Assembly: GCA_012837735.1 (NCBI GenBank)
Contig: DUQP01000027.1
Location: forward strand, 1 to 33,676
DNA from: Bacillota bacterium
GTDB taxonomy: Bacteria; Bacillota; Sulfobacillia; UBA3575; DUQP01
DNA length: 33,676 nucleotides
Direction: 5' to 3'
Shown here: piece by piece, positions 19,543-25,680 of the stretch
Position numbering within the stretch: position 1 is the stretch's first letter
How the letters are laid out: every line of letters begins with the position of its first letter
Program-made: the position numbers and the translations under genes
Notes under the pieces: generated by a model
What the model was told of the DNA's origin: nothing
Seen by the model: only the letters and a program-made list of their open reading frames with translations
The model's database searches: none

Positions 19543-19851
19543 TCATTCGTGGTCTGGCTCATCGGGGCGTAACAGGCCACCCTCGAACACCACGGATTGG
19601 AGAATGCCCGTCACACAAACCTCTTCCTCCTGAATGGTGGCAATCACCATCTCTTCCCCGGTGACAAGCAGCTGCCCCCCGGAAATGCCAATCACAACGC
19701 GATCCGGCCGGTATTCCAACAGACCGCGGTGGTTCTGTACCGTTACTTGCAAAGAACCGATAATGGTAATCCTGGGCATATCGAGTACCAGATCCTGGGG
19801 CAACTCGAACATGCTGGCCAGGCCAAACCGCAACGCCTTTCGATACCGCAC
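19543..19851 (-). CDS. yqfC: Sporulation protein YqfC
   Basis: YqfC is a small conserved sporulation protein always paired with yqfD. The product is 102 residues from a GTG at 19851, preceded by AAAGGAG; the family is about 95 residues. An ATG at 19878 has no ribosome binding site and lies almost on the predicted sigma-E transcription start, so it is rejected. Conserved parts are LPQDLVLDMPRITIIG, LQVTVQNHRGLLEY and ISGGQLLVTGEEM. The gene is preceded by a sigma-E-like promoter and a sigma-A-like promoter, and is divergent from the capA-like gene. Confidence 0.92.
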   Translation of the reverse strand: MRYRKALRFGLASMFELPQDLVLDMPRITIIGSLQVTVQNHRGLLEYRPDRVVIGISGGQLLVTGEEMVIATIQEEEVCVTGILQSVVFEGGLLRPDEPDHE

Positions 19852-19881
19852 CCCTTCCCCTCTCCTTTCTCTCGGCATATC

Positions 19882-19907
19882 TGTATGCCCGGCGGTATGC
19901 GTTATGA
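19882..19907 (-). promoter_or_regulatory. Sigma-E-like promoter of yqfCD
   Basis: On the minus strand TCATAA (19902-19907) and CATACAGAT (its CATACA core at 19882-19887) are separated by 14 bases. This agrees with the B. subtilis sigma-E consensus (ATA-type -35, CATACA-type -10). Transcription would begin near 19875, just upstream of the GTG start of yqfC, a sporulation gene that belongs to the sigma-E regulon in B. subtilis. Confidence 0.65.
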
Positions 19908-19919
19908 CCGGGAAGAAGG

Positions 19920-19948
19920 TTAACAGCCCCGGATGCGGAATTTGTCAA
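19920..19948 (-). promoter_or_regulatory. Sigma-A-like promoter upstream of yqfC
   Basis: TTGACA (19943-19948) is followed after 17 bases by TGTTAA (19920-19925). The -35 box is perfect and the -10 box is poor. It could give vegetative transcription into yqfCD-phoH-pgpH and beyond, whose housekeeping genes cannot depend on a sporulation promoter alone. Confidence 0.5.
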
Positions 19949-19979
19949 GTATCAAGTATGAAAGTGCAGGTGCTGTGCA

Positions 19980-21713
19980 ATGAAGAGCACTGACCATAGC
20001 GACCTTGGCGGTCGCCACCAAGGCGGTAACACAGGCCGCAACTGGGCCATCGCCATCATCATCGGCGGGTTGTTCGTCGCCAGTGCCATACTCACTGCCT
20101 GGCTGACAGCCGGTGCACCATGGCGGGATCGGAATCAGGTGATTATGCTAATAGATGCGGAATTAGCACCAGCCAAAATGGACATCCGGGATCAAAGCGC
20201 GCATTTGGGTATTGATCTTCATATCGAGCAGGTCGATAAACAAACGGCCATCACCGCCATTGCCAGCGGTGCCGCTGACCTTGCCCTGCTCAGCGAGCAA
20301 CCACCGGGTCTGGACGGTTTCGTGGTAGCCAATCGTTATCCAGTTCTGGCAGTGCCATTTTTGCACCCACTGCAAGACATCACCAGCCAGACAGCACGAG
20401 AAATCCTGGCAGCAATTGATGCCCAGATTATGGTCCAGGGTGAAAATTTTGAGGTTCGGCTCCCCGGTCCCGGTCAAGAACAGCCCAAGGCACCGGCGGA
20501 TCTGGAAGCAAATCATATTCTCGTCGGGGAGAGAATCAATCTCGGGCCCGGTTGGCGGGCGCTGAGCATAGACGGGGTAAGCCCTTACGGTCATGACCTC
20601 GAGGCCGGCCGCTACCCATTGCAGCAACCCCTTTGGCTGGTGGAAAGACCAACCCACAGGGGTATCATGGCCCCGATCCTGGAAAGACGTCGCTTCCCCA
20701 ACCGAGATGCCGTCGCCAGCCTGACAGCGTGGCTGCAGGGTGACGGGAAAGCGCTTATGCAAGGGGATGAACCGTGCCTGAGCCTGACGGCCGTGGGCGA
20801 TATCATGCTCGGCCGGGCAGTGGAACGGCGCATTACCGAATTCGGCGCTGATTACCCATTTATGCGCGTCACCCCTTACTTACAAAGATCAGACGTGACA
20901 TTTGCCAATCTTGAGTCGCCGCTCGGCACAGGCGGCACCCCCATACCCGGCAAAGGTATTTGGTTTCGCGCGGATCCCGCTCTGGCTGCGACCATGGCCG
21001 AAGCGGGAATCGATGCCGTCACCCTGGCCAACAACCATATCCTAGACTATGACAGTGAATTGCTACTGGAAACCCTAGATGCTTTGCATGAGAGCGGCAT
21101 CACCTATTGCGGCGCCGGCCGCAACACGGACGAGGCGCACCGGCCGCTAATCATAAATCACAACGGAGTGCGGCTTGCTTTTTTGGGATACAGCCAATTC
21201 GGAGACCTTTTCTGGTCGTGGGAATACAACCGCAGCTTCGCCGCCGGACCGGATCTGCCGGGTGTAGCCTGTTTAGGGCGTGAGCACCTGGCACAAATCA
21301 AAACAGACATTAACAAGGCCCGTGCCGAAGCAGATGTGGTGATCGTCGCCTGCCACTGGGGGGACGAATATGTGGAAATGCCCAACGAAGAGCAACGCTA
21401 CCTGGCACACGCTCTGGCAGATGCGGGCGCCGATTTAATCCTGGGCTCCCACCCGCACGCCATTCAGGGATTTGAATACTATCAAGGCACTGTGATCGTC
21501 TACAGCCTGGGCAATTTCATCATGGATCAGGCCCGCCCGGTAACCTGTCGCAGCATGATTCTGGAAGCCCAGATTACCCCGCAAGGGATTAACAGTCTGT
21601 CGGTAACACCGGCCATCATCAACGAGTGCCAACCCTATGTGCCAGAGGGAGCAGAATACTATGAACTGGCGGATAGAATCCGCCGCATTTCACGGCCGCT
21701 CGTCACTCAATAG
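19980..21713 (+). CDS. CapA-type metallophosphatase with substrate-binding-like N-terminal domain
   Basis: This is the only complete gene here on the + strand. The 577-residue product starts with a cytoplasmic tail and one membrane segment (about residues 21-44), so the rest lies outside. Residues about 48-260 look like a PstS-like substrate-binding fold: IASGAADLALLSE, NRYPVLAVPFLHPLQDITS, PLWLVERP and ASLTAWLQGDGKALMQ. Residues about 267-560 form a CapA/poly-gamma-glutamate-type metallophosphatase: AVGDIMLGR with Asp274, ANLESPLG, LANNHILDYD, ACHWGDEY, GSHPHAIQG and SLGNFIMDQ. The ATG at 19980 has an AGGTG site. The usual capB/capC partners are absent, so polyglutamate synthesis is doubtful; an envelope phosphoesterase or polymer-linkage role is inferred. 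Its 3' end overlaps yqeY by 24 bases, tail to tail. Confidence 0.88.
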   Translation: MKSTDHSDLGGRHQGGNTGRNWAIAIIIGGLFVASAILTAWLTAGAPWRDRNQVIMLIDAELAPAKMDIRDQSAHLGIDLHIEQVDKQTAITAIASGAADLALLSEQPPGLDGFVVANRYPVLAVPFLHPLQDITSQTAREILAAIDAQIMVQGENFEVRLPGPGQEQPKAPADLEANHILVGERINLGPGWRALSIDGVSPYGHDLEAGRYPLQQPLWLVERPTHRGIMAPILERRRFPNRDAVASLTAWLQGDGKALMQGDEPCLSLTAVGDIMLGRAVERRITEFGADYPFMRVTPYLQRSDVTFANLESPLGTGGTPIPGKGIWFRADPALAATMAEAGIDAVTLANNHILDYDSELLLETLDALHESGITYCGAGRNTDEAHRPLIINHNGVRLAFLGYSQFGDLFWSWEYNRSFAAGPDLPGVACLGREHLAQIKTDINKARAEADVVIVACHWGDEYVEMPNEEQRYLAHALADAGADLILGSHPHAIQGFEYYQGTVIVYSLGNFIMDQARPVTCRSMILEAQITPQGINSLSVTPAIINECQPYVPEGAEYYELADRIRRISRPLVTQ

Positions 21714-22151
21714 GCGCTGGACAATTTCGTTCACGAAACGGCCATCCGCGCGTCCTTTCAGCCGCGGCATGAGTTGCTTCATCACTTTGCCCAAATCACC
21801 GCGTCCCGTCGCGCCTGTGTCGGCAATCACCTGCTGGACCAGGGCTGTAATTTCTCCTTCCCCCATCTGTTGCGGCAGGTATTTTCCCAGAATGGAGATT
21901 TCTAGCTTGGTGGCCTGTACAAGATCAGGTCTGCACCCCCGTTCAAATTCGACTAACGCATCCCGGCGCTGCTTGACCTCCCTGGCCAGGACCACCAGCT
22001 CCTCTTCCTCATTCAGCTCCCGCCCTTTTTCGATTTCGGCGTTTTTCAGAGCAGCGCGCGTCATCCTGATCACTGCCAGGGCGGCCTTCCCCTCCGGCCC
22101 TGCTTTCATGGCCTGCACCATATCTTTTTGCAGCCGCTCATTCAAACTCAT
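21690..22151 (-). CDS. yqeY: YqeY/GatB-tail family protein
   Basis: The 153-residue product matches YqeY, a small cytoplasmic protein related to the tail domain of the amidotransferase subunit GatB. It is thought to act on tRNA or its charging, but this is not proven. It begins MSLNERLQKDMVQAMKAG and has EIEKGRELNEEEELVV, LEISILGKYLPQQM and GDLGKVMKQLMPRLKGRADG, all typical. The ATG at 22151 has AGAGGTG six bases upstream; the longer frame from 22214 overlaps rpsU and its hairpin and is rejected. yqeY follows rpsU in many Firmicutes. Its stop lies inside the end of the convergent capA-like gene. Confidence 0.95.
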   Translation of the reverse strand: MSLNERLQKDMVQAMKAGPEGKAALAVIRMTRAALKNAEIEKGRELNEEEELVVLAREVKQRRDALVEFERGCRPDLVQATKLEISILGKYLPQQMGEGEITALVQQVIADTGATGRGDLGKVMKQLMPRLKGRADGRFVNEIVQRLLSDERP

Positions 22152-22174
22152 CAACCACACCTCTTTCCTGAGAT

Positions 22175-22204
22175 TCAAACAGCCCCGGCTCTGTGGGCCG
22201 GGGC
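22175..22204 (-). terminator. Hairpin between rpsU and yqeY
   Basis: GCCCCGGC (22197-22204) pairs with GCCGGGGC (22182-22189) around a seven-base loop, followed on the minus strand by TGTTTGAAT. It begins seven bases after the rpsU stop. The T-rich tail is short, so partial termination is likely, giving more rpsU than yqeY transcript. Confidence 0.65.
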
Positions 22205-22210
22205 CATGTC

Positions 22211-22393
22211 TCATCTGTATCTACGTTTGTTGCGCCTTGCCGCCTCGGATTTCTTCTTGCGCCGCACGCTCGGTTTTTCGTAGTGTTCCTTGCGGCGAGC
22301 ATCCCGCAGAATCCCAGACCGTTGACATTGACGCTTGAAACGCCGCAAAGCGCTGTCAAGGCTCTCGTTTTCCCGAATAATAACCTGGGTCAC
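22211..22393 (-). CDS. rpsU: 30S ribosomal protein S21
   Basis: S21 is a small basic protein of the 30S subunit that helps translation initiation. The product is 60 residues from a GTG at 22393 with a purine-rich GGGAGGG site. It begins [20 protein letters not shown] and ends in [15 protein letters not shown], as usual. The open frame extends further upstream to 22477, but the added residues are not conserved. The gene lies about 98 bases after the HIT gene and before yqeY, a common order. Confidence 0.96.
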
Positions 22394-22974: not shown

Positions 22975-24051
22975 TCAATTATACGACGTACGCAAGCGAC
23001 TTCTATCCTGGAATCTTTCCCAGCCCAATGTGAGCAAACGCGTAAGCAGATCTCGATACGAAAGCCCACTCGCTTCCCATAATTTCGGATACATACTGAT
23101 GGCCGTAAAACCTGGAATAGTGTTGATTTCGTTCACCAAAACCCGTCCGCTGTCCTTTTCCAGGAAAAAGTCCACCCTGGCCATGCCAGAACAGTCGATC
23201 GCCCGGAAAGCTTTGATGGCCAATTTTTGGACCTCAGCAACCACATCATCTGCCAGGGGAGCGGGAATCAGCAGCTCAGAGCCAGTATCCACATATTTCG
23301 CCCGGTAATCATAGAATTCATTGCAGGGCACGATTTCACCCGGGATGGAAGCACAAGGCTCGTCATTCCCCAACACACTGCACTCGATCTCGCGCGCAAC
23401 CACCCCTTGCTCCACAATCAAACGCCGATCATATGCCGCCGCCTTTGCAATAGCCACATTGAGTTGCGCCCGGTCCAGCGCTTTGCTCACCCCCACACTT
23501 GAACCCAGATTGGCCGGTTTCACAAACATCGGGTAAGCCAGGGTCCCTTCGAGGCGCTGCACTATCTTTGCCGGTGACCGCTCCCATTCGCTGCGCAACA
23601 ACACCTGATACGGAACTTGCGGCAAACCCGCCTGGGCAAACAATGCCTTCATGATCCCTTTGTCCATCCCGGCCGCGCTGGCCAACACTCCGGCACCTAC
23701 GTAAGGGACTCCCGCCATCTCCAACAGCCCCTGTAGCGTGCCATCTTCCCCAAAGGTACCGTGCAAGACGGGGAAGAAGATGTCGATCTGCTCAACCCGC
23801 TCCCCGGCTAAGGAAACCAAACGAGGGTTTGTGGGGTCAGTCAGCAAAGCTACCGGTTCTCCTGTCGCCACCGCCTGTGTGCCATCAAACTGCGCCCTTA
23901 GCCAACGGCCGTTCTTGTCAATCGCAATCGGTACTACGTCAAATCGCTCTCGGTCGATCGCCCGCATCACGGAAGCGGCGGATACCAGGGAAACCTCGTG
24001 CTCGCCGGAGCGCCCCCCATAAATGACCCCAACTCGGCAACGCTTTTGCAC
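22975..24051 (-). CDS. ddl: D-alanine--D-alanine ligase
   Basis: This ATP-grasp enzyme joins two D-alanines for the peptidoglycan precursor. The 358-residue product starts at a GTG (24051) with a GAGGGGG site. It begins RVGVIYGGRSGEHEVSL (Glu17-His18-Glu19), has KPANLGSSVGVSKA, and carries FYDYRAKYV in the omega loop. The Lys-Tyr in that loop is the pattern of D-Ala-D-Ala ligases; a Phe at the Tyr position marks D-Ala-D-Lac enzymes such as that of Leuconostoc. It ends with the metal-binding RVLVNEINTIPGFTAISMYP. The gene follows the ThDP enzyme by 24 bases. Vancomycin resistance is not suggested. Confidence 0.96.
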   Translation of the reverse strand: MQKRCRVGVIYGGRSGEHEVSLVSAASVMRAIDRERFDVVPIAIDKNGRWLRAQFDGTQAVATGEPVALLTDPTNPRLVSLAGERVEQIDIFFPVLHGTFGEDGTLQGLLEMAGVPYVGAGVLASAAGMDKGIMKALFAQAGLPQVPYQVLLRSEWERSPAKIVQRLEGTLAYPMFVKPANLGSSVGVSKALDRAQLNVAIAKAAAYDRRLIVEQGVVAREIECSVLGNDEPCASIPGEIVPCNEFYDYRAKYVDTGSELLIPAPLADDVVAEVQKLAIKAFRAIDCSGMARVDFFLEKDSGRVLVNEINTIPGFTAISMYPKLWEASGLSYRDLLTRLLTLGWERFQDRSRLRTSYN

Positions 24052-24075
24052 AAACCCAACCCCCTCAACATTTTT

Positions 24076-25680
24076 CTAACCAGGATAGCGCGCTTCATTG
24101 ATTGGAATGGCCAACAAGGCCGGACTCCCATCATTAAAGGCCTTAGCCACCTGCGCCGATAATTGCCCTGCGCCGGCAGCGGACAGGCCGGTCATGCCAA
24201 ATGCCCGCGCCAGTGCCGGCAGATCCGGATTCTGGAACTTTACCGCCGTGTGGTTGAGACCGCGCCGGTCCTGATGGATCCGAATCAAGCTGAGCGTCTC
24301 ATCTATAAAAACACACACCACTACCGGTAGTGCTTCCCGAACGATCGTCTCCAGTTCCCCTAGATACATCCCTAAACCGCCATCTCCCACCAAGGCCAGG
24401 ACCGGCACATCACGCCGCGCCAAAGCGGCCGCCACGGCCGCCGGCAGGGCGTACCCCATGGACGACAAGCCATTTGAGACCAAAAAGCTGTTTGGGTGAT
24501 ATACGGGCAGCGTTTGCCCGGCAGCGAGCTTATGGGCCCCCACATCACAGGTGATAATCGCCGCCCGCGGGGTGCCTGCGCGCACCTGCAACAGCGCCTG
24601 CGTAATCGACAGACCCTCACCCGGCGGATTAATGGCGGCCAATACTCGCTGGCGCGTCTCACTGCCGATTCCCTCTGGCCAGTGGAAACGTCGCACTCCC
24701 TCGGCCAAAGCCCGCAGGCCCGCCGCCATATCGCCGGCCAGCTCCACATCCGCTTGATAATAACAGTCGATATTCGGCAGGCGGTCAATGTGAATGACCG
24801 GGCAATCCCATGCCCAAGGCTTCATCAATTCACTGGCATCAAGCCCGACGGCCAGCACAAGGTCGGCCTGATCTAGCAACTCCCGCACCTGGTCGCTGCC
24901 GAAAGCGACATCCATCACCCCTGCTGACAGGAGGTGGTCTTCCGGTATAACGCCTTTCCCTTTCGGGGTGGTCACAACCGGCACCCCGCCAGTCTCGGCA
25001 AACCGCCTCACGGCATCTGCGACCGGGCCGGCAGCCAGACCAGCCACCAGCACCGGATAGTGTGACTCTGTCAACAGCTGCCCGGCGTTCTGTAAAGCGA
25101 ACGGGTCCACCCCATAAGCGGTCCTGCCGCCCCCCTTCCCTTCCAACAGCCGGGCAGATCCACCGCTCCAATGACCAACCGGGGCCTCGGCACCCGCGAC
25201 ATCGCTGGGCACCTGCAACAATACCGGCCCTGGCCGCCCCATCAGGCTAATGCGCATCGCTTTATCAACCACTGCCCCGACGTTGCCGGCCGTCACTGTC
25301 TGGCACCACTTTGTGATCGGAGCAAACAACTGATTCAAGTCCAGGTATTGATGGGTAGCGATCCCCTGAAAATCCGTCTTCAGCTGACCGGCAATGGCGA
25401 TTACAGGGCAGCGATCCAAATAAGCATGTGCCACGCCGCTCACCAAGTTCGTGGCCCCTGGTCCCAATGTCGCCAGACACACTCCCGGTCGGCCTGTCAT
25501 GCCACCATAAGTAGCGGCCATGAAAGCAGCGGCCGCTTCGTGCTTGGCCAACACAACCCGCATCCCTTCTGCCTGCACAGCATCCAGGACCGCCAACACT
25601 TCGCCTCCGGGATATGCAAACACCACATCACAACCTGCGCTCCGCAAGCGCCGGGCCATCACTTGCGCAACAGTGGCCAC
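24076..25680 (-). CDS. IlvB-like thiamine-diphosphate-dependent enzyme
   Basis: The 534-residue product has the three-domain layout of acetolactate synthase-like enzymes. The PYR domain has the cofactor-activating Glu48 in AKHEAAAAFMA and LATLGPGATNLVSGVAHAY; a central domain and a PP domain with GDGG (Asp433) follow. The usual Asn-Asn of the diphosphate/Mg site is Ile459-Asp460 (FIDETLSLI), so Asp would supply the second metal ligand. It decarboxylates a 2-keto acid in all likelihood, but the substrate is unknown. There is no ilvN, ilvC or other branched-chain gene nearby, so acetolactate synthesis for valine/leucine is not supported. The GTG at 25680 has a GAGGGGGGAG site. The gene sits between mtaB and ddl. 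Confidence 0.88.
   Translation of the reverse strand: MATVAQVMARRLRSAGCDVVFAYPGGEVLAVLDAVQAEGMRVVLAKHEAAAAFMAATYGGMTGRPGVCLATLGPGATNLVSGVAHAYLDRCPVIAIAGQLKTDFQGIATHQYLDLNQLFAPITKWCQTVTAGNVGAVVDKAMRISLMGRPGPVLLQVPSDVAGAEAPVGHWSGGSARLLEGKGGGRTAYGVDPFALQNAGQLLTESHYPVLVAGLAAGPVADAVRRFAETGGVPVVTTPKGKGVIPEDHLLSAGVMDVAFGSDQVRELLDQADLVLAVGLDASELMKPWAWDCPVIHIDRLPNIDCYYQADVELAGDMAAGLRALAEGVRRFHWPEGIGSETRQRVLAAINPPGEGLSITQALLQVRAGTPRAAIITCDVGAHKLAAGQTLPVYHPNSFLVSNGLSSMGYALPAAVAAALARRDVPVLALVGDGGLGMYLGELETIVREALPVVVCVFIDETLSLIRIHQDRRGLNHTAVKFQNPDLPALARAFGMTGLSAAGAGQLSAQVAKAFNDGSPALLAIPINEARYPG

Follow-up and report, generated by a model that had tools for sequence, protein, structure and literature searches.

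An open reading frame in a 33,676-nucleotide stretch of Bacillota DNA (contig DUQP01000027.1, here called the window) joins a domain related to the phosphate-binding protein PstS to a CapA-type catalytic domain, and the phosphate-site segments of PstS are lost from the first of these. With a probability of roughly 0.6, we favor the reading that the product is a surface metalloenzyme of the CapA/MslH type in which a periplasmic-binding-protein (PBP) fold without its phosphate site has been repurposed as a spacer or docking module. The gene lies on the forward strand at positions 19980 to 21713, starts with ATG, and encodes 577 residues. A helix at residues 18 to 43 (20031 to 20108), present in the predicted model and hydrophobic in sequence, is followed by a PstS-derived type II PBP-fold domain of 218 residues (residues 45 to 262, 20112 to 20765), which was delimited by profile, structure-prediction, and alignment searches, and by a PGA_cap domain with a metallophosphatase fold (residues 269 to 517, 20784 to 21530), which was delimited by Pfam and structure comparison. 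The first-pass annotation had proposed a fusion of a PstS-like half to a CapA half anchored outside the membrane. The fusion is confirmed by the open reading frame, the PGA_cap match, the family profile, and the fold prediction, and the modeled helix agrees with a membrane anchor that would hold the protein N-in/C-out, on the extracytoplasmic side. Lipobox-like sequences occur at the anchor position in four relatives (L005, L128, L134, and L135); lipobox-pattern matches in L006, L040, L130, and L133 were doubtful and were excluded from that count.

The identity of the N-terminal domain is taken from a family profile, because the profile names PstS whereas single-sequence Pfam and NCBIfam searches do not. 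For the window protein searched singly, no Pfam family exceeded its cutoff over the N-domain (LysR_substrate reached an E value of 0.0086 on the N-terminal part), and the NCBIfam scan gave the domain no family name. A profile built from the N-domains of 21 fusion proteins, the window protein among them, ranked PstS first among solved structures, with the lowest E value for 4h1x (2.9e-14, a match in two stretches whose order is swapped in the 4h1x chain) and collinear PstS matches to 4q8r (7.3e-8), 4gd5 (8.8e-8), and 1twy (1.4e-7). The best LysR-type regulator reached 0.0028. When the profile was compared by hhalign with a profile of four PstS proteins of the same class, the probability was 99.4% (E = 8.8e-22); two other binding proteins of the window genome gave 0.5% and 0.1%, an uneven control in that each of the two entered as one sequence, whereas PstS was represented by a profile. 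BLASTP of the window N-domain against one class PstS returned an E value of 4e-6. Searched one by one, 9 of the 21 members matched LysR_substrate in Pfam (best E = 1.7e-6) versus 7 matching PBP_like_2 (best E = 1e-4), and 9 matched the PstS model TIGR02136 in NCBIfam (best E = 3.6e-5). By sequence, then, the kinship of the domain points to PstS.

Because the VIA list for the full-length model covered mainly residues 263 to 562, mostly the CapA part, a separate model of the N-domain was made and used for structure searches. This AlphaFold2 prediction, which spans residues 45 to 262 and was made from the alignment, reached a pLDDT of 86.0 and a pTM of 0.80 and was weak at its own residues 101 to 130 (pLDDT 53 to 60). 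Foldseek placed phosphate-binding proteins at ranks 1 through 14 (1twy_B: E = 2.7e-10, TM 0.56, rmsd 8.6). VIA-align also put 1twy_B on top (Z = 13.7, rmsd 3.8, 191 residues aligned), in a tie with LysR effector domains (Z = 13.0). The predicted fold is thus that of a type II PBP. The first-pass annotation had named two outcomes that would tell against its proposal, a fold unrelated to such proteins and a simple linker; neither materialized, because the predicted fold is of the PBP type and profile comparisons indicate PstS kinship. The N-domain shares with PstS (PF12849, TIGR02136) the fold, the order of secondary-structure elements, and a DGV-P-G-YPL stretch; it differs in that the phosphate-site segments are missing, lobe 2 is shorter, and the domain is joined to an enzyme.

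Four segments, GSTS, GGGS(S/T)AG, (S/V/L)SR, and REEGSGTR, which we take to be the phosphate contacts of PstS, were present in all six class PstS proteins that were aligned (chosen partly by a GSGT-like motif). The full set was found in none of the 21 aligned fused domains, and in the alignment with the six PstS proteins the REEGSGTR region was largely deleted. One fused domain, that of L017, retains GSS at the second segment. The pattern scan was extended to 35 N-regions (the 21 plus 14 more, after removal of the duplicates L126 and L139): a GSGT-like motif occurred in none, a P-loop pattern matched once (GSST at the second segment of L017), and an [AS]SR pattern matched in L040, L127, L133, and L140. 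Over 210 pairs, mean pairwise identity was 22% for the N-domain versus 50% for the CapA domain, and the six PstS proteins averaged 55% among themselves. The best conserved N-domain positions resemble framework, such as the DGVSP...GRYPL segment at residues 198 to 214 (20571 to 20621), which class PstS also contains; its conservation was taken from the alignment, as a regular expression missed members visible there. No alternative conserved pocket was evident among the aligned positions, and none of the polar pocket positions was strongly conserved. The suggestion that the protein might capture an anion is therefore unsupported as far as PstS chemistry is concerned. Since the phosphate segments have been lost, we conclude that the fusion is probably not a phosphate sensor.

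The catalytic half, in turn, is canonical. PGA_cap (PF09587) matched with an E value of 5e-83 (278.9 bits against a cutoff of 27), and VIA-align superimposed residues 264 to 577 on structures of MslH, a lasso-peptide Trp epimerase (PDB 8gq9, 8itg, 8ith, and 8gqb), with Z scores of 39.3 to 39.6, an rmsd of 2.0 over 295 residues, and 27 to 28% identity. MslH is the closest solved fold; the next structures, YmdB and a 5′-nucleotidase among them, scored about 17 to 18. According to the accessible text of PMC10406935, MslH binds Ca(II) through Glu44, Asn87, His259, and His261 and relies on His88/Asp91 and His295/Asp11 for catalysis. Equivalents were counted by hand from the alignment, with D274 (20799 to 20801), outside the aligned stretch, taken by motif as the counterpart of Asp11. 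E312 (20913 to 20915) corresponds to the metal ligand Glu44; N352-H353-x-x-D356 (21033 to 21047) corresponds to Asn87, His88, and Asp91; H459 of an HWGDE motif (21354 to 21368) corresponds to His259; and H493 of an HPH motif (21450 to 21458) corresponds to His295. These seven of the eight MslH positions were identical in all 59 CapA domains aligned. The eighth, His261 in MslH, is glycine in all 59 (G461), and E463 and H491 are retained in 54. The metal-site motifs noticed at first pass are present. The NCBIfam model for MslH-type epimerases (NF038314) scored 92.4 bits against a cutoff of 700, below the equivalog score.

The fusion shares with CapA/PgsA proteins of poly-gamma-glutamate synthesis a full-length PGA_cap domain, the metal-site motifs, and a probable extracytoplasmic anchor; it differs from them in the added PstS-derived domain and in the absence of a CapC match from its genome. 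No match to CapC (PF14102) was found in the window genome, which is 94.9% complete (1.55 Mb in 67 contigs), and the B. subtilis control was matched; for CapC, the search agrees with the missing partner remarked on earlier. The same genome contains one further PGA_cap gene, on another contig (C45, 16450 to 17166, minus strand), whose 393-residue product is too short for a PstS-like domain and sits on a very long tree branch. MslH belongs to the CapA family (accessible text of PMC9266682), and B. subtilis with pgsBC and without pgsA made polyglutamate with a D/L ratio of 5/95 instead of 75/25 (accessible text of PMC6029982). On these two precedents, it is a reasonable guess that the CapA domain would alter the stereochemistry of a peptide or polymer.

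A search for the same domain architecture showed that the fusion is not unique to the window. Relatives were collected at 56 loci, of which 47 were translated; the weak matches L050 to L058 were set aside. Ahead of tree building, L035 was removed for masking, L036 and L038 for truncation at contig ends, and L047 for a match spread over more than one frame. By hand comparison of the tables, the N-domain profile and PF09587 fall in one open frame at at least 28 loci in at least 26 of the 154 class genomes. Two other N-domain matches were set aside as fusions, one in a 333-residue frame (G152) and one in a 532-residue frame (G132), as neither had a PGA_cap partner among the matches listed. Across the phylum, 115 of 398 genomes matched the full profile at an E value of 1e-60, and in most of the matches the alignment began beyond position 180 of the 530-position model and so covered the CapA part alone; four genomes outside the class (G192, G233, G469, and G307) matched the N-domain too. 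A plasmid search returned 122 matching records, none covering over 80% of the query. A limited search of open-access literature, in which candidate papers were judged by title and the start of the abstract, showed no description of a PstS-like/CapA fusion.

On a 45-row tree of the CapA domain, the PstS-like label requires three changes, and none of 500 shuffles was as low. The PstS-like clade has support of 85/94 and is not starred, and 21 of its 23 rows keep the N-domain. The protein L013 lacks the domain and forms a sister pair with the fusion L004 (support 99/89), and L018 (3539 to 4939) is a CapA protein with a short apparent PstS-like remnant and a weak profile match (E = 0.41). The tree fits one gain, a full loss in L013, and a half-loss in L018, the direction of change being our reading of an unrooted tree. 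In other members of the same CapA family, a different domain occupies the same position: Germane (PF10646, spore germination) exceeded its cutoff in L026 and L029 and fell below it in L032, and Pfam found no Germane match in L028. The N-domain of the window fusion, in contrast, has a predicted PBP fold.

The fusion gene is divergent from yqfC-yqfD (TIGR02856 and TIGR02876) and convergent with a gene at 21690 to 22214 (minus strand) that overlaps its 3′ end by 24 bases; this neighbor had no NCBIfam match, and from its sequence we presume it to be yqeY-like. yqfC itself (19543 to 19878, minus strand), which encodes a sporulation protein, scored 85.8 bits against a cutoff of 77.8. Ten neighbors were scanned, nine of them with an NCBIfam match, and the neighbors read all sit on the minus strand; relative to these neighbors, the fusion gene does run against the strand of its block, as first remarked. 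The intergenic region at 19879 to 19979 contained no sigma-70-like site. At 19880 to 19908 (minus strand), upstream of yqfC, lies GTCATA-N15-CATACANA, which in our judgment resembles the sigma-E promoter consensus; the search pattern was written after the sighting. Farther along the minus strand, at 22975 to 25680, a D-alanine--D-alanine ligase gene and an acetolactate-synthase-like gene lie between an HIT gene and mtaB. According to the accessible text of PMC3533761, yqfC and yqfD are transcribed under sigma-E and presumed to have a role in the spore cortex. The neighborhood thus suggests a tie between the fusion and sporulation. Co-occurrence was uninformative on this point, with Spo0A_C found in 143 of the 154 class genomes and in 24 of the 26 fusion genomes listed.

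Among 35 fusion loci, where neighbor labels outside the NCBIfam-matched genes of the window are our own assignments from sequence, seven lie on the yqfC side: the window, L004, L005, L128, L129, and L135 adjoin yqfC, and L003 is placed there by its floA-nfeD-yqeY side. Nine lie on the rpsT/holA side (L007, L011, L012, L014, L131, and L134, and more loosely L010, L132, and L136), and two are within about 3 kb of prmA (L137 and L138). Another nine are near a polyprenyl-synthase-like or AAA-like gene (L006, L008, L009, L015, L041, L043, L125, L127, and L130), and eight, some on short contigs, have none of these marker genes. Eighteen of the 35, for example, the window, L012, and L138, are thus at or near three points of a conserved holA-rpsT...prmA...yqfC-phoH block, the point differing by lineage.

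A PBP_like_2 protein is encoded elsewhere in 25 of the 26 fusion genomes listed, which rules out the fusion as a PstS replacement as a rule; the PBP_like_2 family also covers tungstate-type binding proteins. The sole exception is the window genome, in which nothing, the fusion protein included, matched PBP_like_2 (PF12849) over the cutoff; a phosphate-related role of the fusion is for that reason conceivable there, which counts against the favored reading. PHO4 had no match in this genome, and Na_Pi_cotrans matched at two loci (C66 and C11), which may supply phosphate. No pst genes were recognized alongside the fusion gene and no pstCAB partners in the window, and the five PF00528 matches in the genome resemble, as judged by eye, peptide, glycine-betaine, and amino-acid transporters.

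In the favored reading, a PstS-type phosphate-binding protein would have been the ancestor of a domain placed between the membrane and the enzyme. The PBP fold of that domain would have survived while the phosphate-site segments and a portion of the second lobe disappeared, and the domain would now most likely serve as a spacer and as a docking or orientation module. By analogy with MslH and PgsA, the most likely substrate of the intact CapA domain would be a secreted or envelope peptide or an anionic polymer, processed by metal-assisted His/Asp chemistry, either epimerization or bond cleavage. Retention of the N-domain in 21 of 23 clade rows counts against a mere spacer. Also counting against this reading are the GSS of L017, the LysR tie in VIA-align, and the more frequent and stronger LysR_substrate matches of single members in Pfam. 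The last two are what would be expected of a LysR-effector-type domain not derived from PstS, an origin we consider very improbable given the far better collinear PstS matches of the family profile, the TIGR02136 matches, the DGV-P-G-YPL stretch held in common with class PstS, and the hhalign result (a comparison with PstS and two other binding proteins). We judge LysR kinship the weaker of the two, though not on every test.

A different role for the domain would be to capture an anion or polymer substrate and thereby switch or feed the CapA domain. Its nearest structures, PstS and LysR-effector domains, both belong to ligand-binding families, and its retention across the clade is in keeping with such gating. 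Set against this are the lost segments, the partly deleted lobe 2, the lack of strong conservation at polar pocket positions, and one full and one half loss alongside intact CapA domains, and we regard gating as unlikely; the domain may nevertheless hold a new ligand pocket whose residues are not strictly conserved. The missing domain in L013 and the short remnant in L018, the fast divergence of the N-domain, and the failure of L137 and L138 to match the first part of its profile would also suit an old PstS-CapA fusion in which the PstS portion no longer has a function and is decaying. We likewise doubt simple erosion, as the fold is mostly confident, the DGV-P-G-YPL stretch is conserved, and the N-region is in frame at the 35 loci read, though these were gathered as open frames. 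More speculatively, and still as a minority possibility, the PstS-derived domain could recognize a new nonphosphate ligand or partner, such as a peptide or polymer of the envelope or a membrane protein involved in sporulation (for example, the yqfC-yqfD products), and exchange of N-domains, PstS-like for Germane, could steer the CapA enzymes of these Bacillota to different targets.

On the favored reading of a repurposed PBP fold, the ligand-binding protein of a transporter would have shed its ligand site and been put to new use as an accessory domain in a surface enzyme, in a series that can be traced from a full PstS-like domain through a remnant to none. The fusion would also mark a branch of CapA proteins that lacks CapC in the genome tested, often lies beside a conserved block that includes sporulation genes, and has a substrate that can be searched for directly.
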